A stretch of DNA of 64,000 nucleotides from Calycina herbarum (lineage: Eukaryota; Ascomycota; Leotiomycetes; Helotiales; Pezizellaceae): positions 868,001 through 932,000 of the forward strand of contig LLEY01000002.1 in NCBI GenBank assembly GCA_001414485.1. Direction: 5' to 3'. Position 1 is the first letter of the stretch. Each line of letters opens with the position of its first letter. A program made the translations under genes and the position numbers. The notes below the pieces were generated by a model. That model was not told the origin of the DNA, searched no databases, and worked only from the letters and a program-made list of their open reading frames with translations. This document shows positions 5,739 to 16,090 of this stretch, piece after piece.

Positions 5739-5872
5739 GGCTGAAGCGAGATGTTTGATATGTGAAATTTGAAAGAGTGTGAAGTTGGTTTCCGCGATTT
5801 TACGGCTTTTGTGCGGAACCCACACCGGAATCCGCTGAACTTGCTGTCCCCACCCCTGAAAAGGACGCTAAC

Positions 5873-6028
5873 CCACATTATGACGGCTTTTCGGTCTCCG
5901 TTCGAGTATATGGCAGCCTCAAGGGCGCATATGTTTGCGCTCTCGAAATCGTCTCGCCGTCGGGGTTTCGGAACTTCGGGACTTGTTGGGATTTACTGTA
6001 GGACGAAATAGTTACTTTGTTGAACAGC
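5873..6028 (-). pseudogene. relic of the nucleoside-phosphorylase head of the neighbouring NLR gene
   Basis: This stretch is a diverged, shortened copy, in the same orientation, of 13256-13484, the 5' part of the first exon of the NLR-like gene. The match includes the exact 16-mer TCTCGAAATCGTCTCG, the shared GCGCATATG, and the flanks CACATTATGACG and TTCGGxACTxGTTGG. Relative to the parent about 70 bp (near 13294-13365) are missing and small indels break the frame. It lies between the DUF1993 gene and the 3' end of the NLR/cyclase locus, so a second NLR copy, or a duplication of the head, once stood here. Confidence 0.75.
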
Positions 6029-6273
6029 CATTTAGAGCAATATTCTCTTCATTATAAACCCAACAATTGTTGAGCTTTCTTGCTAACTCATGGAATAACA
6101 TTGGCTCAAGTCCTTCTGACGAAGAATGGTAAATGACAAGTCATTTATAAAACGACGCCAGATCACCTGTTGTCAATGAGGAAACGAATATTTCACAAAT
6201 GAAAGTGGAGGGAGGTCTTGCTCTGAGAAGTGGTTATGGATACTTCTAAGACTTTCAGGTCGCTTAAAATAAA

Positions 6274-7131
6274 TTAGTGAACTGAACCACGTCCGGCCTT
6301 ACTAAACGTACACTTACTTTCTGATGAATCTCGACGTTGCCGTCGATTGCTTGCAGGTCTATGTGGGCGACCAGAGCACCTGAAGAACTGAGATAACGGT
6401 AAATCATCTACAGAGATAACCATAACCATAACACTTTCAGTCGATCCATAAGCTATGGTGAGATCCCGAAGTTTTTCAGCAGCGCGTGTCAGATCACCAC
6501 GTTGTGAGACCGCAACACTTGCAACCATTTCTAGGGCTAGGAAATCCCATAATTCTCCAGATGCAATTACCAACAACTGGTCCTCTTTTCTCAGTATTGT
6601 TTCGGTGATATGAGGTTTGGCTATAACAACAGGAATGAGCCGGGCACAGCCAAATGCCCTTGAAACCTTCAACATGTCGTTCAAATTTCCATCTCTGGAT
6701 ACCCACCCACCAGCATCCCAAATGCGCTCTCTTTCTTCTGGGTTTGCGGGATCATGTTTTTGAGTGAGGAACCTATATTCTTGATCTGAACGAATGATCA
6801 TAACCTGCGCGTCGCCCACATTGGCGACATAAAGGGTCGACTTCCGGAACAGTACAAATGCAGCCACAGCATAATCGTCTCTTGGGCCACCTGCAAGGTC
6901 ATTGCTGTCATGCGAATATGGTTCATATTCCTTAAGGTATTTCTGTTTTGCGATTGCCGCGTTCAACGAAAGGAAGGTACGCCTAAATGCGTCCACGGGA
7001 GTCTGCCCGACTGGGAGCCCTTCTAACTGTTCCACTAACAAGTCCTGGATCCTGTCATGAACGAACTTCGAGGTGATTAACGAATTCAACCCCAGATCTT
7101 CCAACGAATTGCCAGCAACGATGCCAACCAA
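6274..7131 (-). CDS. PP2C-like domain of adenylate-cyclase type, end of the fusion
   Basis: The frame covers a PP2C fold as found in fungal adenylate cyclases: DAFRRTFLSLNAAIA, LYVANVGDAQVMII, LTQKHDPANPEERERIWDAGG, WVSRDGNLNDMLKVSRAFG and LLVIASGELWDF. The canonical metal-binding 'DG' of the first motif reads VAGNS here, so phosphatase activity is doubtful; the cyclase-type PP2C is thought to be regulatory. After MVMVISVDDL a short basic tail follows and the frame stops at 6274. An alternative 3' intron (donor at 6317, acceptor at 6263) would extend it to 6193 and still give no class III cyclase catalytic domain. I looked for a cyclase domain between 6193 and 5739 on this strand and found only the PNP relic. 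Confidence 0.82.
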   Translation of the reverse strand: MVGIVAGNSLEDLGLNSLITSKFVHDRIQDLLVEQLEGLPVGQTPVDAFRRTFLSLNAAIAKQKYLKEYEPYSHDSNDLAGGPRDDYAVAAFVLFRKSTLYVANVGDAQVMIIRSDQEYRFLTQKHDPANPEERERIWDAGGWVSRDGNLNDMLKVSRAFGCARLIPVVIAKPHITETILRKEDQLLVIASGELWDFLALEMVASVAVSQRGDLTRAAEKLRDLTIAYGSTESVMVMVISVDDLPLSQFFRCSGRPHRPASNRRQRRDSSESKCTFSKAGRGSVH

Positions 7132-7141
7132 TATGTCATTT

Positions 7142-9649
7142 TCAGGATTTATAAAGTTGAAGTCCGATCAATGATGGTAACATACTCATACTCGCCAAGA
7201 GTATCTGAGATCCCATAATTAATATTCCCGACAACCCCCACAGGCGATCCGCTTTTTGGTATGGGAGATCAGCTGATGTTCTTGTTTGAACGTCTTCAAG
7301 ACCTAAAATTCCGAAGCGATCAAGTACAGGAACGATTGATGCTTGTTGATCAGAGGTGTGATCGGGTGACGAGTCAAACACCAATACTAGCCCTGCGTTA
7401 CCAGAAAAGTTCAAGTACTTCAGATTGAAATTGGTCCTGTGAGATCTGTGAGGAGGCGGTCCATCGAGAGTATGACGCTGGAAAAAATTGCTTCCACAGT
7501 CCAAAACAGAAAGCGAAGTAGCTTGGTAAAGTAGATATGGTAAGGTCTTGAATTTGTTTCCGTTTAAGTGTAGTACCCGAAGAAGCGGGGTTCCATTGTT
7601 TCCTAACCCATTTAGTGGAATGCCCATTAATTGGTTTCCAGAGAGATACAATTTTTCTATGCAAGGCCAACACTGGAGACTTTCAAGAGGAAGATGAGTA
7701 AGTTTATTATATGAGAGATTCAATAGTCGTAGTTGCAGAAGAGGAGAGAGCTCTTTGATGACGCCACAAAGCGAGTTGTCGGCAATGGCAAGATAACGCA
7801 GTGACTCGATGAATGTACTTTCAATGAGACTTCGAGGATCCGCTGATGAAGTTGAAAGCAGCAGGCTCTCTGGACAAGCTGGAAAGCCATGTAGCGAGTT
7901 TGAGGATACGTTAAGAACTGTCAATTTATTTGCAAGCCAAATATCCGACGGCAGGGTCTCCAATTTATTTTGACGTGCATCAAAAGATCGCAGCTCTTTG
8001 AGACAACCAATTTGAGAAGGGATTGCTCGAAGAGCATTGCGAGCAACACTGAGATACCTCAGTTCTTTAAGCAGTCCAATGCTGTCAGGAAGTGATGCGA
8101 GTCGATTTTCTTCCAAGTTAAGTTGGGTGATCTTAGGTAGCTTGGAAAACACCTTGTCATTTATATTGGTCAGATTCGTATTGGAAATATTTAGCGAAGT
8201 GAGTTCGTGAATGGGGCTCATGATTTCGAACCATATGATTGGATTTGCGTGTAAACTAAGTGTCTTGAGATTCTCGAATCCGACGGTAAAGATAACCACA
8301 GATATAGAGTTATTGTCAACTAAGAGAACTTCTAAGACCCTAAGATTGAAGAGAACGGAAATATCCGAAAGATAATTTGACCGTAGATCAATGGCTTTGA
8401 GGCTTTTTAATGTACCTAGAGACTGCGGAAGAGTACCCCGCAGCTTGTTGTTCCGAATTGTAAAGGTTTCTAATGCCAAAAAACCACTGAATATGTCTGG
8501 TAGGTTTGGAATGGAATTAAAGCTTATATCGAGATCCACAAGTGTCCCTAAGGTGCTAAGCTGCTCAGGAAATTGCTTGAGTGTGTTTGAGGAGAGGTCA
8601 AGAATTCTTAGAGTCTTGCATAGGCCTGGTATCTGATTAAGTCGGTTGTTGGCCATTTTTAGCTCGGTCAATTTTGGGTAGACTTCAAGTGTATGAGCTA
8701 ACATATTGAACCCTGGATTGCGAGACAGATTGATCGAAATGATCTTGGAGGCGGGGACCTTGAGATTATCCGGAAATCTAACAATACCTAGACCAGAAAT
8801 ATCAATTTTCGTCGTCATTTCCGAGAAGTTGTTATTGCTCTCATGACCGTTAATGTTGCTGGAAGTGGTGGAGAATTTCCACAAGCACTCGTTGTCATGT
8901 TGACAGGCATGTAATACCATATCCCTATCTTCGTAGCCAACTTGCTTGAGAAGACGATGTTGGATTATAAGCGGCCGTTCGTTCCGTCCAAGTACCCGTT
9001 CATTATAACTTTTATAGCGTTTTCTAAACATAATTTGATCCTTTGAATATGTTGGAGACATCGAGGGCGTTGGGAATTCTTGTTTTGCATTCCGCATTTG
9101 ATGGAGAACTTCGGTGACAGTTGAGCTAATCGGCAAGGAGAGAATCGTAGGCACAATTTCGTCTTTCCAGTACACAGGAATAATACAACAAGTAACAGGA
9201 TTTGCTGTAATGTAGTCATCATGATTGGATTTGGCCCCAAGTTCAACAAGAGTCTGTGCTGTGGCTTGATGTCCATTAAGTGAGGCATACTGTCCTGCTG
9301 GTAATCCCGCTAAATCTTTTTCGTTTGGGTCGGATCCTAGTTGTATCAAGAGCCGAACAACAGAGACAGCACCAGTACTGGTTGCGTGAAATAATGAGGT
9401 CCAATCCGCGTCGTCTTTATCATTGGTTTCTGCACCATATTCCACTAACATTCGCACAGCAGCCTCATGGCCCTTTTCTGCTGCACAATGAAGAGGCGTC
9501 AATCCCAAGTCATCTTTTCCCCTAGGATTGCCATCGAGTTTAATCAGCGTTCGTATTACATCCCCATAACCCTTGTTAGATGCATAATGCAGTGCTGACC
9601 AACCCTTCCTGTCCTTTGCTTGAACGTTCATTTTCAGAAAATGTACCAA
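7142..9649 (-). CDS. ankyrin - Ras-association - leucine-rich repeat segment (adenylate-cyclase-like)
   Basis: Open frame of 835 codons. Residues 1-141 are four ankyrin repeats (DRKGWSALHYASNKGYGDV and so on) continuing those of the upstream frame. Residues about 152-245 match the Ras-association domain of fungal adenylate cyclases: a beta-rich start (TCCIIPVYWKDE), then ERPLIIQHRLLKQVGYEDRD, whose 'RP...Q..LL.QVGYE' core is diagnostic. Residues about 280-790 are some 18-20 leucine-rich repeats of the LxxLxLxxNxLxxLP type. The end (GLEDVQTRTSADLPYQKAD) is the known LRR-to-PP2C linker of these cyclases. The next residues of that linker (YGISDTLGEYEYV) are found in another frame after the G5 run at 7235-7239. 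Downstream of Ras, the RA domain of true cyclases mediates activation. The first ATG at 9649 is internal to an ankyrin repeat and need not be a start. Confidence 0.85.
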   Translation of the reverse strand: MVHFLKMNVQAKDRKGWSALHYASNKGYGDVIRTLIKLDGNPRGKDDLGLTPLHCAAEKGHEAAVRMLVEYGAETNDKDDADWTSLFHATSTGAVSVVRLLIQLGSDPNEKDLAGLPAGQYASLNGHQATAQTLVELGAKSNHDDYITANPVTCCIIPVYWKDEIVPTILSLPISSTVTEVLHQMRNAKQEFPTPSMSPTYSKDQIMFRKRYKSYNERVLGRNERPLIIQHRLLKQVGYEDRDMVLHACQHDNECLWKFSTTSSNINGHESNNNFSEMTTKIDISGLGIVRFPDNLKVPASKIISINLSRNPGFNMLAHTLEVYPKLTELKMANNRLNQIPGLCKTLRILDLSSNTLKQFPEQLSTLGTLVDLDISFNSIPNLPDIFSGFLALETFTIRNNKLRGTLPQSLGTLKSLKAIDLRSNYLSDISVLFNLRVLEVLLVDNNSISVVIFTVGFENLKTLSLHANPIIWFEIMSPIHELTSLNISNTNLTNINDKVFSKLPKITQLNLEENRLASLPDSIGLLKELRYLSVARNALRAIPSQIGCLKELRSFDARQNKLETLPSDIWLANKLTVLNVSSNSLHGFPACPESLLLSTSSADPRSLIESTFIESLRYLAIADNSLCGVIKELSPLLQLRLLNLSYNKLTHLPLESLQCWPCIEKLYLSGNQLMGIPLNGLGNNGTPLLRVLHLNGNKFKTLPYLLYQATSLSVLDCGSNFFQRHTLDGPPPHRSHRTNFNLKYLNFSGNAGLVLVFDSSPDHTSDQQASIVPVLDRFGILGLEDVQTRTSADLPYQKADRLWGLSGILIMGSQILLASMSMLPSLIGLQLYKS

Positions 9650-9657
9650 AACTGATA

Positions 9658-12600
9658 CTATTGAAGATGCCTGGCCTTGTCATTTAGATCAGCACCCAGC
9701 AAGGACAAAGTTCGTACCATCTTATGATGGTTATTGGAAGCTGCAACAAAGATGCTGGTTTCCCCTTTGCTGTCAATGGCGTTTAAAGGAACATTGTTAT
9801 CCACTAACAGTGCAGCAACACCCGCAGCACCAGACTCTGAAGCATGGTGCAGAGCAGTTCGCTGGTCACTATCAAGACCTTTGGGGTCACAACGGGCCAA
9901 CAGTTTCATCACTATATCGTAATTTCCTTTTCGTGACGCCAAATGCAACGGGGGAAGATAACTATAGCGATACAGTGGAAGATTAAAGATTTCGTCCTTG
10001 GGCTTTGGATTTTGCAAACTCATTAGAATTTCAAGCATCGGGGTGTGACCATGTGCTACAGTCCAGCCCAATAACTCTGAGTAGTACGAGTCAAGGGAGC
10101 GTGTATTTCCCCAAGGCTGCAGCTCCCAAGACGAATTTGGTTCAAGTACGAGCATTCGAAATCTCTCCCAAGATCTAGACTCTTGGGTAATGACGCGTGT
10201 GAGAGGTGCCCATTGATCCTTCGCAAAATAGAAAAAGGACGGCAACTTCTTAGGGGAAAAAGCCTTCGGGGGATTTTGAGGTATAGATATTGATGTGTTT
10301 TTAGGCTTTGGCAAAAAGCTCCTCACCATCGACGGCACGCTCTCAGAAAGTCGCTCCACAGCTTTAGAGGGGAATCGGAGTTTTGAGTCTTTCAAAGAAG
10401 ACTGTAGAGCGAGCGCATAATCCTGAGAAGTGAGATGCGCTAAACAAAGCTCTCCTAGTTCAAGCTCAGATGTATTCAAGTCAAAACCACCAGGGAACAG
10501 TTCATCAGTAACCTTTCGTCTTTCCAGGTGCTGGCGTACAGAATGATGCGTGATGAGGACTTCTAGATTGTCATCTAAAGTAATGAGATTATGACAACAC
10601 TTCAAAACATCTTGTAGAGAAGGCAAATCATCCCAGTCAAGTCGCCCAGAAGTGGAGTCGATCCCTAGTGCTTCTCTGAGCTGCTCGATCTTGAATGGTT
10701 TATGCACCGTACACACCCAACGTAGAATTCGCCGAGCGAAACGACTTTGTCAGCTATTTATACGTTGTAAACAGCGATCGTACGTCTCGGTCAAATTGTT
10801 CGGCAAGGTCTCGAGTGCAAGGTTTATGTCGGCATCTGTATAGCACTCATCCCACAGGGCTTCGATTTGGAGGCTCACCCATAGGATCCTGCCCATGTGT
10901 TAGCGAATGTGGAAGTATAGATATAACAAGCCACTATGTAAGAAGTTTGGTCTTTGTTCCACAGCAAGTCTTCATCAAAACATCATAAAAGACATTGTAG
11001 AATAATCGAAACTATTATTGATAGAAGAATTAGAAACTTTATTTCTCAATTCTCCTAAACTTGCTCGTTTAACTGTAATAATTCGAGACAATATGGCATA
11101 ATAAGATAGAAATGTGACAGAGAGAAACGAGCGAGCCTCTTGTACTTACATCTGATCAGCTTTATCGTTGAGTTTGTCCTTGATATTTTGGAGCACCTTC
11201 TCTTCCTCGGTCAGCCGCCTCTCCTGCAATTTCTCAGCAAGTTTCCAGTCGATAAATTGACGAATATCCTTCTTGGTTTCCACCCCCGAGATGGTTGTTG
11301 TGACCAGGTCTTGTATAAAACTTTTCACATCGAGACTTTCACGACCAGAAATCAAAACCTTTCGGCCGGGAAGCGATGACATTTTGCGGATGACTCTTAG
11401 AGTTCTGTGAACCTCAGGCAATTCACATTCGTCAAGCCCATCAACAATGTATGTTGTATGTGGAAAAAGATCGCTAAGAAATTGGCTCAATGGCATAAAA
11501 ACTTGTTCTATTATCTCTTCGAAGTTGGGGAGATGTCGTAATGGGACAAAAAGCCGCTTGGTTGATGATACTATTTCTCGTGGACATGACAATCCTGCTG
11601 CGTCTAGAAACCCAATCATTTGCTTAATGAAACTCCGGAAGAGATGCTCGGCTCCCAGTCGATTTTTGTTTGATTGGCTGTAGAAAAAGTGGGCGACGAA
11701 ATTGTTATCTCTCTGCGACATTTCCGTGAGATGTCGGATAATAACACTCCTAAACAGAATTGTTATTATTATGAAGTTTAAGTAGGCGATGCTTTTTCAA
11801 CTTACGTAACGAGAGTTTTGCCAGAGCCGACTGAGAAAGTGGGATGTTAGTGAGTTAACTTGCGATAATTATGGTGCATACTTTTGCCAGACAACCAGAG
11901 ACATGAACGATCACCTTCAATCCACCCTTTAAATCTTTCATCGTCAAATAACCAGCCAACAGTCCCTGGACACTTGCTTCGAAAGTAGTTTCCATAGGTA
12001 CGGTCAGGCTCATAATCGGAGATAGACTCGAAAATGTTGACAGATGATGACCCTGTTGCTCATTAGCTAGAACCTATTATTATGTTGTAGACTGAAAACA
12101 TACACTCTTGGGCTATTTGCCATTCTGGCCTCTTTGCAAGGACAAGAAACCGTAGAGGGTCATCCGGATGCATCGGCAATACATCAATCAAAGGTACTAG
12201 ATCCGTGCTATATTCAAGTTCACCTAATGGGTTCTTGATTAGTGGGGATTCGTAGCTTGGAGCTAAAGAATACGTACCTTGAGAGCTGGTTGCAATAGCC
12301 CAATTCTCAATAAAGGCCTTAACACATGCAGCAGCAGTGGCTGCTGCATACATTTGCCATTGCTTGTTTTTGTGACTATCAGCGTAATCGCACACGCCTT
12401 TGATCACTAGACACGGAAGGTTGTCCCAAACCTGCGAAATTTTAGCATATATTCTTTTCGTTTGAATTGGAAGCCGAGAGAAGGGAGCAAAGGATGAAAA
12501 TTGCTCCCGGTACTAAGAATAGGAGTTCAAAAAGGACAACAATGGGAGAAGTTGCATACACCGGCACCTTCCATTTCGAAGGCTATAACCGAATCGTTGG

Positions 12601-13600
12601 CAGCAATTCTATCGCGATCTTCCCCTGATTTCATAACAGTATCCCCTGAAGCAACTAAGCCAAAATGAACGACATGCCTCATGGTATGTCCTGTCTGTTC
12701 AAGTTGTTGGAGCCTTTGGCGCGGAAGAAGCCTGCTTTCGTCACACCCAAGATCTTCGCAAGTGGAGACAATGGCCTGATTGCACAGATTGCCGTCTCTA
12801 CATGCGTTGCAATGCAAAGGGTCTTGGTGTTTATGGTTGTAATTTGATTTGAAGAGTTTGTCATCGCTTGGCCCTGGATAGCACGCTCCATCACCTAACC
12901 TTTCTTGCAAGATGGACAGATATTCCGACATCTTATCTTGAAGAGTTTTTCGAGCCCAATTAGTTTTGAGCTTGGCCAGAAGCGAACGGATTTCTTGATT
13001 GGGTCGACTGAGACCGTCCGTAGGTGTATCTTTCATCACAAACCCATTTGGAAATCTTCTTCCAAAGTCGTATTGGATGAGTCCTTCACTGATCACAACA
13101 TCTCCCAGCACAAGCTCCTCCTTGCCATTCACTAAGGGAACACCACCGCAAATTCCGACGAGAAGCGCCAGTTTTATCCCACTGAAGCTGTGCCGAAAGT
13201 TTGCTGCTACACTCGCCGCATTTCCTTTGCCCATTCCTGGCATAGACACCAAGACCACATTATGACGCCCTATCGCTCCGGTCGAGTAAGAGTTTGGGTC
13301 TCCTGGTGCCTTTCCATAGTTATATCCGTTGCTTTCCCAGCGTATATCGAAGAGGGCTTGTACGGCATCAGCCTCGAGGGGGAGTGCGCATATGATTGCG
13401 ATCTCGAAATCGTCTCGGCGTTTCGGAGCTTCGGTACTCGTTGGAAGATTTAATGTGGGGCGAGATGGGTACTCTATTTGAGCAAATGCAGGAGCTATAA
13501 TTCCTTCAGTGTTGTTATCAAAACCAGCAGCATTGATTTTGTTCTCACCATTGGCATTGCTGCTACCACCAGGCTGCTGGTGCCTCCGAGTCCGGTTCAT
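9658..13600 (-). CDS. receptor half: PNP_UDP_1 - NACHT - winged-helix - ankyrin
   Basis: Exons: 13600-12560, 12431-12104, 12052-11882, 11830-11806, 11749-11150, then 10888 onwards; introns of 128, 51, 51, 56 and 261 nt keep phase. Phosphorylase-type head from about residue 64 ([17 protein letters not shown]), with [18 protein letters not shown] and, after intron 1, [13 protein letters not shown]. Such heads are common at the N-terminus of fungal NLR/STAND proteins. NACHT: P-loop GKIGSGKT, split over two introns with most of it in a 25-nt exon (11806-11830); Walker [10 protein letters not shown] near 11422-11452; sensor-like LISGRES. A winged-helix-like segment follows ([16 protein letters not shown], then [18 protein letters not shown]), with a TGA inside it at 10750-10752. 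Ankyrin repeats run to TAG at 9658. It is expected to oligomerise on ligand binding in allorecognition or defence; that role is inferred from the family. Confidence 0.85.
11022..11066. repeat. dispersed imperfect palindrome, copy inside the 261-nt intron
   Basis: TAGAAGAATTAGAAACTT ... TTCTCCTAAACTTGCTC. It resembles the copies at 16228-16276 and 60184-60232 (inverted). It lies in the intron 10889-11149 of the NLR-like gene, which may explain why that intron is longer than its neighbours. Confidence 0.45.
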
Positions 13601-14535: not shown

Positions 14536-16090
14536 ATGAGCTATTCGAATCGTTCATCAGTTGGACAGTCTGGGCCATCGCAAAGTCGGGGAATTGTATC
14601 GCCACTGTCACTTCCAAGTATGTCTGCAGTATCAGGGGATGGTAGTCACCAAATGGGGCCTGGTTTTGACACAACCGGACAAATTGCACCACCCGGAAAG
14701 AAACCTAGAGTTACAGGCACGTTGTGGGAAGATGAAGGGACACTCTGTTTCCAAGTTGAAGCCAAAGGAATTTCTGTTGCTCGTCGCGAAGGTAAGGAGG
14801 ACCTCTCGTCCAACTCTACTTTGCTCTCCTTAATTTAATATCAATCTCAACCCACTACTTCGTTAACAATTCTTATTAGACAACCACATGATAAATGGCA
14901 CGAAGCTGCTTAACGTAACAGGAGTGTCTAGGGGTCGCCGAGATGGAATCCTGAAATCCGAAAAATTGAGGCATGTTATAAAAATTGGGCCTGTGCACCT
15001 CAAGGGTGTATGGATACCGTTCGAGAGAGCTCTTGATTTTGCCAACAAGGAGCGAATAACCGAGCTGCTCTATCCCCTATTCGTCCACAACATTGGGGAA
15101 CTTTTGTATCACCCGACCAACCAAGGACATTCCAGCGCCGTCTCGGCCGCAGCTAAGCGTTGGAACCAAGAACAAAGTCAAGTTAGGATGCAACAGGATG
15201 AAGTCTATAACACTGAGGCTCGTCCAAGACCGCCCGGTTCTGGGGCCAGGTATCTTTTTCCAACGCCAGCCACTAGTATTTCAAGCGTCATGAGTCAAAC
15301 AATTGAAAATATGGATTGGGGGACCAACCTGAGTGGAGAAGGGAATGAACCATCAGAACCACCACAGCAACTGTTCAGAACAAACCCCTATCCTTCTGGA
15401 GCCGAACGGTCTCTTCTACCGCAAGAAAACATCTTCGAGCCGCCATCTTCTTCCGTTTCTAGGGATATATCTCCTATGTTGCCGACACCAACTAGCCTTG
15501 GATGGAGGACACCAACTAGCCCTGGACGGAGCAAGCGTGTACCTACATATATATGTGATATATGTGAGCCTGCAAAAGTACGCCAGAAACCCCATATCGA
15601 AAACCGTTTACTTACAGAAATATAGACTTTTACAAGAGCGGGACATTTGAGGTAAGATCTCTTAATGCTTTATTTATAGCCCAGCTCACTCCAATAGGCG
15701 CCATCAACTCTCACACAAGAAACCGCCATATCAGTGCACCTTCGAAGACTGCAATAGAGCTTTTCACCAGCCGGATCTGCTTACCTGGCATATGAATCGG
15801 CAGTAAGTGGCATTGATGATTTTGTGAAAACTGAAGCTAAATTATGCAGTGAAACGCAAGGCCAGAAGGCTTATATAGAAGAAAATAGTCCTTTCAAACC
15901 CCAGCCCAGTCCAATACCAACACAAAAGGAGTTTGATTCCCAACAGGTTGATTCTCCAGTTTCGGAAATTTCCGAGAAAGATGCCAGGCAAGATGCGCGT
16001 GGAAAAGGACATATACCAAAAGAACTGATAAAGTACAACAACTCCAAGGGTTCTCCGTTAGCATGTGACTTAACGTCCAGCTCGATGTGA
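14536..16090 (+). CDS. APSES (StuA-type) transcription factor with two C2H2 zinc fingers
   Basis: Five exons: 14536-14791, 14880-15577, 15626-15651, 15698-15802, 15850-16090 (441 residues, all phases consistent). The APSES DNA-binding domain starts at about residue 58 ([20 protein letters not shown]) and includes [34 protein letters not shown] and [20 protein letters not shown], all StuA hallmarks; the first intron falls at ARRE/DN. After about 130 Ser/Pro/Thr-rich residues come two C2H2 fingers, both assembled only after splicing: [19 protein letters not shown] (C-x2-C-x14-H-x3-H) and [19 protein letters not shown], whose last His is created by the final intron. Typical StuA has no such fingers, so this is a distinct APSES-C2H2 paralogue. 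Expected to be nuclear and to bind DNA. Exon 3 is only 26 nt. Confidence 0.88.

Follow-up and report, generated by a model that had tools for sequence, protein, structure and literature searches.

Can the sensor end of a fungal NLR-type receptor be supplied by a signalling enzyme of the same organism, and is such a receptor still in working order? The question is raised by a gene of Calycina herbarum, which lies on the minus strand of a window of 64,000 nucleotides (the whole stretch of DNA that was analysed; contig C112, positions 868001-932000, of a 68.8-Mb assembly comprising 379 contigs). According to Pfam and a gene model, this gene encodes, in order, a PNP_UDP_1 head, a NACHT domain (NPHP3_N), a winged helix, ankyrin repeats, a Ras-association (RA) domain, leucine-rich repeats (LRRs) and a PP2C domain. 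The fusion is real and unusual: a fungal NLR with an integrated host domain, which is interrupted as assembled. The original prediction had read the locus as a fusion receptor; its component parts and their order, the in-frame junction and the origin from a cyclase hold, but a working receptor is not supported by the sequence as read, given a stop within the NLR part and two frame changes that separate LRR from PP2C.

The explanation that we favour, with about even confidence, is that a segment of the organism’s own adenylate cyclase, reaching from RA to PP2C, was joined in frame to a PNP_UDP-NACHT-ANK receptor and long kept as protein, acted as an integrated-domain receptor when intact, and probably is a young pseudogene now.

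The junction of ankyrin repeats and RA domain

The ankyrin-RA junction is a real fusion. A single stop-to-stop frame on the minus strand (9679-7142) comprises 845 codons, or 829 from the first ATG, and carries ankyrins, RA_3 and LRRs with zero stops; the stop-free frame of the original prediction is thus borne out, with 845 instead of 835 codons. Within this frame the second part of the ankyrin repeats (9215-9664; Ank_2, E 3e-23, and alignment with relatives) is followed, at a distance of about a dozen residues, by the cyclase-derived RA_3 domain (8870-9175; E 2e-12) and the cyclase-derived LRRs (7250-8818; LRR_8, E 1e-32, and alignment to the own cyclase), so that a non-canonical domain shares its frame with the ankyrin repeats of the receptor. 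The in-frame ATGs upstream of RA, at 9631 and 9451, both lie within the ankyrins, and RA has none outside them. Further downstream lies the predicted PP2C part (6274-7167; Pfam 6433-6996, E 1.5e-45), which is 45% identical to the own cyclase and is read in another frame than the LRR part. For the RA segment an RA-type fold is predicted, its RA structure matches being tied with FERM lobes, and a model of the 845 residues contains a confident LRR solenoid together with an unreliable ankyrin part (predicted local distance difference test, pLDDT, under 50). Fold matches of the LRR segment to SHOC2 and bacterial LRR proteins were taken as a shared fold only.

Upstream, the head and NACHT domain of the original prediction were recovered (PNP_UDP_1, E 2e-19; NPHP3_N, E 5e-12). 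The NLR gene model starts at ATG 13600 on the minus strand and includes five GT-AG introns of 128, 51, 51, 56 and 261 nt. Exon 1 (12560-13600) encodes the PNP_UDP_1 head (E 1.7e-19 before rounding) and can be aligned with P0242, P0243, P0245, P0246 and P0248. Exons 2 to 4 (11806-12431, namely 12431-12104, 12052-11882 and 11830-11806), preceded by the introns of 128, 51 and 51 nt, contribute the end of the head, a linker and the P-loop, whose motif GSGKT falls at the joint of exons 3 and 4. Exon 5 (11150-11749) harbours NACHT with the motif IVDGLDE, which we take to be Walker B, and exon 6 (9661-10888) the winged helix (GPIID_WHD, E 8e-7) and the first ankyrin repeats (Ank_2, E 1e-16). Domain content and order, judged by Pfam, the gene model and an alignment to eight relatives, are those of PNP_UDP-NACHT-ANK NLRs; an uninterrupted coding sequence is precluded by an in-frame TGA at 10752. 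Identity to the relatives, which include proteins from Metarhizium, Conoideocrella, Aspergillus and Trichoderma, is 34-47.5% across the NLR part, and P0243 of Metarhizium robertsii (47.5%) and P0242 of Conoideocrella luteorostrata (44.6%) resemble the window NLR in head, NACHT, winged helix and ankyrins. A genome search for DNA similar to window positions 11200-9200 yielded four short matches only. The 261-nt intron between exons 5 and 6 (10889-11149) contains a short repeat-like stretch (11141-11022), matched at 73-92% in four other places of the genome, which is perhaps a small mobile element.

Origin of the cyclase module

Sequence comparisons indicate that the module derives from the organism’s own adenylate cyclase gene. 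This gene is located on another contig (C168, L034), where an intact open reading frame (ORF) of 1792 codons contains RA, LRR, PP2C and the catalytic domain. The module corresponds to residues 338-1397 of the own cyclase; identity is 29-45% among the three main matches, and across the 625 RA-LRR residues that could be aligned it is 43%. The copy retains the RA-LRR-PP2C chassis of Cyr1 and lacks the G-alpha-binding part as well as the class III catalytic domain, and its LRR is without about 46 residues and the serine-rich insert of the intact enzyme. As originally predicted, there is no cyclase catalytic domain at the locus: the catalytic and G-alpha-binding domains have one match each in the genome, both in the C168 gene. 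RA domains occur twice in the genome, in the window copy and in the C168 cyclase, and a genome search for a further copy of the module found none.

A tree of 62 rows unites the copy, the own cyclase and the three relatives nearest to the latter in one group (Shimodaira-Hasegawa-like approximate likelihood ratio test, SH-aLRT, 97), in line with the predicted cyclase origin of all three parts and, together with the domain calls, their order; the trees also mark the module as derived from a host gene. The nearest proteins of the own cyclase among those fetched are P0021 (67% identity), P0024 (61%) and P0020 (60%). In the same tree the sister group consists of rows that we take to belong to Dothideomycetes, Lecanoromycetes and Eurotiomycetes, and Tuber and Morchella branch off outside; this placement makes the organism an ascomycete of Pezizomycotina. 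Since the tool flagged long branches, the tree was rebuilt without four rows (58 rows), and the same group was obtained with SH-aLRT 98. The rows dropped were the short P0148, P0154 and P0138 for the first tree and in addition P0161, P0107, P0166 and P0049 for the second; the long-branch warning applies to both trees and, after the rebuild, still to the copy itself and P0149. The terminal branch of the copy in the 62-row tree measures 2.51 versus 0.18 for the own cyclase.

Constraint on the copy

How was so divergent a copy maintained? Its 646 RA-LRR codons contain no stop, compared to a mean of 22.7 and a minimum of 12 in 200 neutral simulations, which were started from the own cyclase and run to the identity of the copy; because no run gave fewer than 12 stops, a chance origin of the open RA-LRR frame is implausible. 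Over 625 aligned codons, the proportions of non-synonymous (pN) and silent (pS) differences between copy and own cyclase amount to 0.40 and 0.84, with silent sites saturated. Of 277 near-invariant sites, defined by agreement of at least 95% of 46 other cyclases with the residue of the own cyclase, the copy keeps 192, versus 52 of 283 variable sites (less than 40% sharing) and 75/162 and 52/146 sites in the intermediate classes. These 46 rows exclude the copy and own cyclase as well as three short rows, 11 basidiomycete rows, P0161, P0107 and P0166. Near-invariant sites are kept at similar rates in RA (13/21), LRR (125/175) and PP2C (54/81). The absent stops and the kept near-invariant sites thus indicate that the copy evolved fast but under protein-level constraint, and was long translated and selected. 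As RA lacks a separate ATG, the most economical interpretation is that selection acted on the ankyrin-fused protein.

We consider it rather unlikely that the locus was dead on arrival, in the sense that a diverged, stand-alone cyclase paralogue and an NLR were joined by rearrangement, never formed a working protein and have both been decaying since. Such a history would account for breaks on either side of the junction and for the relic of a second PNP head at the same locus, and the join is undated. However, the rest of a second cyclase was not found in the genome, where the catalytic and G-alpha-binding matches are single, RA follows the ankyrins in frame after its dozen residues without an own ATG, and near-invariant sites are retained to a similar extent in all three copied domains in spite of the missing catalytic domain.

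Interruptions of the reading frame

The original prediction missed that the whole gene is not one intact frame: it is broken by the TGA at 10752-10750, by a frame change near 9665 within the ankyrins, and by two further frame changes between LRR and PP2C, at about 7228 and 7165. The TGA separates NACHT from the winged helix and occupies an alignment column that is filled by a residue in 8 of 8 relatives. The best in-frame intron across it (score 8.8) would remove conserved residues, and among the GT-AG pairs in reach none both scored well and spared these. Intron scores were derived from a matrix of 16 reference introns, five from the NLR-cyclase gene and 11 from HSP70/TCP1 genes, with ends set by eye; the references score 15.9-23.8 on their own matrix and 12.8-22.9 when each is left out. 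The two introns of Med14, a neighbour in the window, score 18.8 and 9.0, the latter being 47 nt long, and hence a low score is compatible with a real intron.

The ankyrin frame change could be bridged by a candidate intron of 47 nt (9671-9717; score 12.7, near the 12.8 of the lowest left-out references and reached at 12% of 683 positions that served as background in the own cyclase ORF), the splicing of which would leave an ankyrin repeat a few residues longer than in the relatives. Between LRR and PP2C, a linker stretch in the third frame (7165-7230; tblastn frame -3, cyclase residues 1113-1138) still matches the cyclase, weakly when taken alone (E 0.014). Due to the two frame changes at its ends, PP2C is out of frame with LRR unless spliced. 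The best introns score 7.5 from LRR to this middle stretch, 3.3 from there to PP2C and 12.3 from LRR straight to PP2C; the last, an 88-nt GT-AG piece (7185-7098), would cut off the beginning of the PP2C match, and about 14 residues would be read outside the cyclase frame. As low scores do not speak firmly against an intron, the ankyrin intron is plausible and the TGA is the firmest break, with splicing possible for the others.

Assembly noise is an unlikely cause of the breaks, although a single wrong base at the TGA is possible. As a control, 35 HSP70/TCP1 matches covering 29,679 bases were inspected. Among their 13 neighbouring pairs, 11 show gaps of 41-155 bases with a frame change, which leaves room for an intron; the remaining two show a 15-base gap in the same frame and a 20-base gap where a 47-nt intron is visible by eye. 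In-frame stops occur in 6 of the 35 matches. For five of these the best intron candidates score 23.4, 13.1, 19.2, 14.9 and 16.6, the 19.2 candidate (L063) overlapping one of the training introns; the remaining match (C335; six stops, E 7e-13), a weak one, stands outside the intron scoring. Leaving out the C335 match, no frame change without intron room was found in these HSP70/TCP1 pieces. Among the neighbours in the window, ATG22 and POP1 have open frames, and two introns connect the parts of Med14.

It is unlikely, in our view, that the gene works today, its breaks being introns, sequence errors or sites of read-through, or its product being an 829-residue ankyrin-RA-LRR protein translated from ATG 9631. 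The long frame is open, the 47-nt piece has a usual intron length, and a real Med14 intron scores below both this piece and the 88-nt piece. Moreover, a protein identical to the 829-residue ORF (P0121) originates from a contig of 30,688 bases, which, compared to the 942,636 bases of C112, must be a separate contig record, perhaps built from the same reads. Yet, P0121 carries the same out-of-frame tail, and therefore at least the first LRR-PP2C frame change recurs on a second record; the TGA has no intron candidate that would keep conserved residues, the 88-nt splice would be costly to PP2C, and, apart from the weak C335 match, no frame change without intron room turned up in the control pieces.

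In view of its early stop and altered frames, the assembled gene is probably a recent pseudogene, that is, a recently lost receptor. If indels amount to 10% of substitutions and 80% of them break the frame, one stop corresponds to about 0.0035 and three frame changes to about 0.0055 neutral substitutions per site. These low values imply a young loss, and fewer true frame changes would render it younger still. A recent loss would fit the turnover expected of such receptors.

Several points weigh against a long-kept receptor that was recently lost. An ordinary intron of 47 nt may plausibly account for the frame change in the ankyrins, and the 88-nt piece could splice LRR to PP2C, albeit at the cost of conserved residues. 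The intron score is no sharp test, as real Med14 and left-out reference introns reach down to 9.0 and 12.8, respectively, and the best candidates of two of five stop-bearing control matches score no more than 13.1 and 14.9. The copy sits on a very long branch (2.5-2.7 across both trees) in quick trees built without bootstrap. Finally, the constraint and part of the divergence may be older than the undated fusion.

A possible Ras-cAMP sensor

How might the favoured history, capture and long retention of the cyclase segment followed by recent loss, have shaped a receptor? The segment from RA to PP2C landed in frame at the ankyrin end of a PNP_UDP-NACHT-ANK gene and was long retained as protein, presumably under constraint on the fusion itself. 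In the intact state, RA-LRR-PP2C at the sensor end may have bound Ras-GTP or any factor acting on the Ras-cyclase hub, or have imitated the cyclase towards factors that target it. A disturbance of the module would then release the NACHT switch, whereupon the nucleosidase head would become active. Later, in the genome sampled here, a stop and frame changes interrupted the gene. A putative role as integrated decoy or Ras-GTP sensor agrees with the anatomy and with the constraint, and it would concern an ancestral or sister allele rather more than the sequence as read; the decoy and sensor readings are equally compatible with the sequence. Intact alleles may exist in the species or its relatives. 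More tentatively, the NLR might have adopted the Ras-gated sensor half of its own cyclase, plus the first LRRs in a fungal NLR, thereby tying activation to Ras-GTP or to an attack on the Ras-cyclic AMP (cAMP) hub, with intact alleles persisting and the present allele segregating or recently lost.

We know of no other LRR-bearing fungal NLR. If functional, the gene would be the first one known to us, and its LRRs have been taken from a host signalling enzyme. If the cyclase part was long kept inside an NLR, the Ras-cAMP hub would be something that fungi guard. In Podospora, according to a passage of one study, the G-alpha gene mod-D bears on vegetative incompatibility (PMC1325252), and a 1996 paper in the reference list of that study states in its title that one additional cyclase gene alleviates the developmental defects of a mutant in a gene controlling incompatibility.

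Relatives and known systems

Protein database searches, which scored about 8000 candidates each, such that absence there is no proof, returned no RA, LRR or PP2C accession in any of the 93 matches to the NLR part (all listed). Ankyrins and RA did not occur together among the best 120 of 427 matches in one search; among the best 120 of 1791 in another they did so in P0121 only, the window’s own protein. No fungal literature on NACHT joined with adenylate cyclase was found. The predicted lack of a known protein with both parts accords with these searches, as no other fused protein was among the matches listed.

In a survey of 5,616 fungal NLR candidates (Dyrka 2014, PMC4986451; repeated in PMC12881547) the repeats found were of the WD, ankyrin and TPR types, and LRRs were absent. 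PMC12258605 includes LRRs in the repeats that one fungal survey looked for, and its passages on LRRs mention none from fungi. PNP_UDP heads of Podospora examples are described as predicted nucleosidases (Dyrka 2014, PMC4986451). A close parallel is offered by CHK-2-like kinase NLRs of Sordariales, where part of a host regulatory protein is likewise C-terminal on a canonical NACHT NLR and proposed as an integrated decoy; there, a kinase domain occurs in nine NLRs of two orthogroups, whereas here a three-domain cyclase module occurs in one interrupted copy (PMC12258605). Plant NLRs such as rice Pik-1 with its HMA domain similarly bear integrated host-like domains read as bait, but are demonstrated receptors, in contrast to the window gene, a putative one (PMC10195085).

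Cyr1/AcyA, in its own copy on C168, shares the RA-LRR-PP2C order with the module and differs by the domains, LRR residues and insert named above. The RA domain is tied to the Ras-dependence of Cyr1, and ancestral Cyr1 is called a likely pseudophosphatase, in a passage of PMC12002173. That the module instead represents a PHLPP-type RA-LRR-PP2C phosphatase is very improbable: the Pfam RA family is named after PHLPP, and PHLPP and Cyr1 have the same three-part order, but the trees, which contain no PHLPP rows, place the copy beside the own cyclase, eight scanned ORFs lack a PH domain, and loss of PHLPP in fungi is reported in the same source (PMC12002173).

An LRR-PP2C-cyclase protein filed under Candidatus Bathyarchaeota (P0133) probably reflects fungal contamination of that assembly.

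Neighbouring sequences

The surroundings of the gene contain further NLR-like sequences. Downstream on the minus strand lies the relic of a second PNP head (5833-6051), which in blastn matches the head of the NLR gene in 99 of 134 and 55 of 77 columns (71-74% DNA identity). It adjoins a DUF1993 ORF (5867-5220) and is read as a trace of a tandem NLR. A Rfam scan of the window gave no match at the gathering threshold. Beside the NLR start, an ORF on the plus strand (14867-15622) encodes a KilA-N domain (E 2e-6). A further NACHT gene, the ankyrin-like sequence of which was judged by eye, is located on the opposite strand (L080 2797-5247; C112 about 863.8-866.2 kb), some 8 kb away from where the NLR-cyclase gene ends. 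The genome as a whole yields 152 NPHP3_N matches, some of which are pieces of one gene and several of which have in-frame stops, indicating a large NLR repertoire with apparent relics, or introns, inside the NPHP3_N domain.

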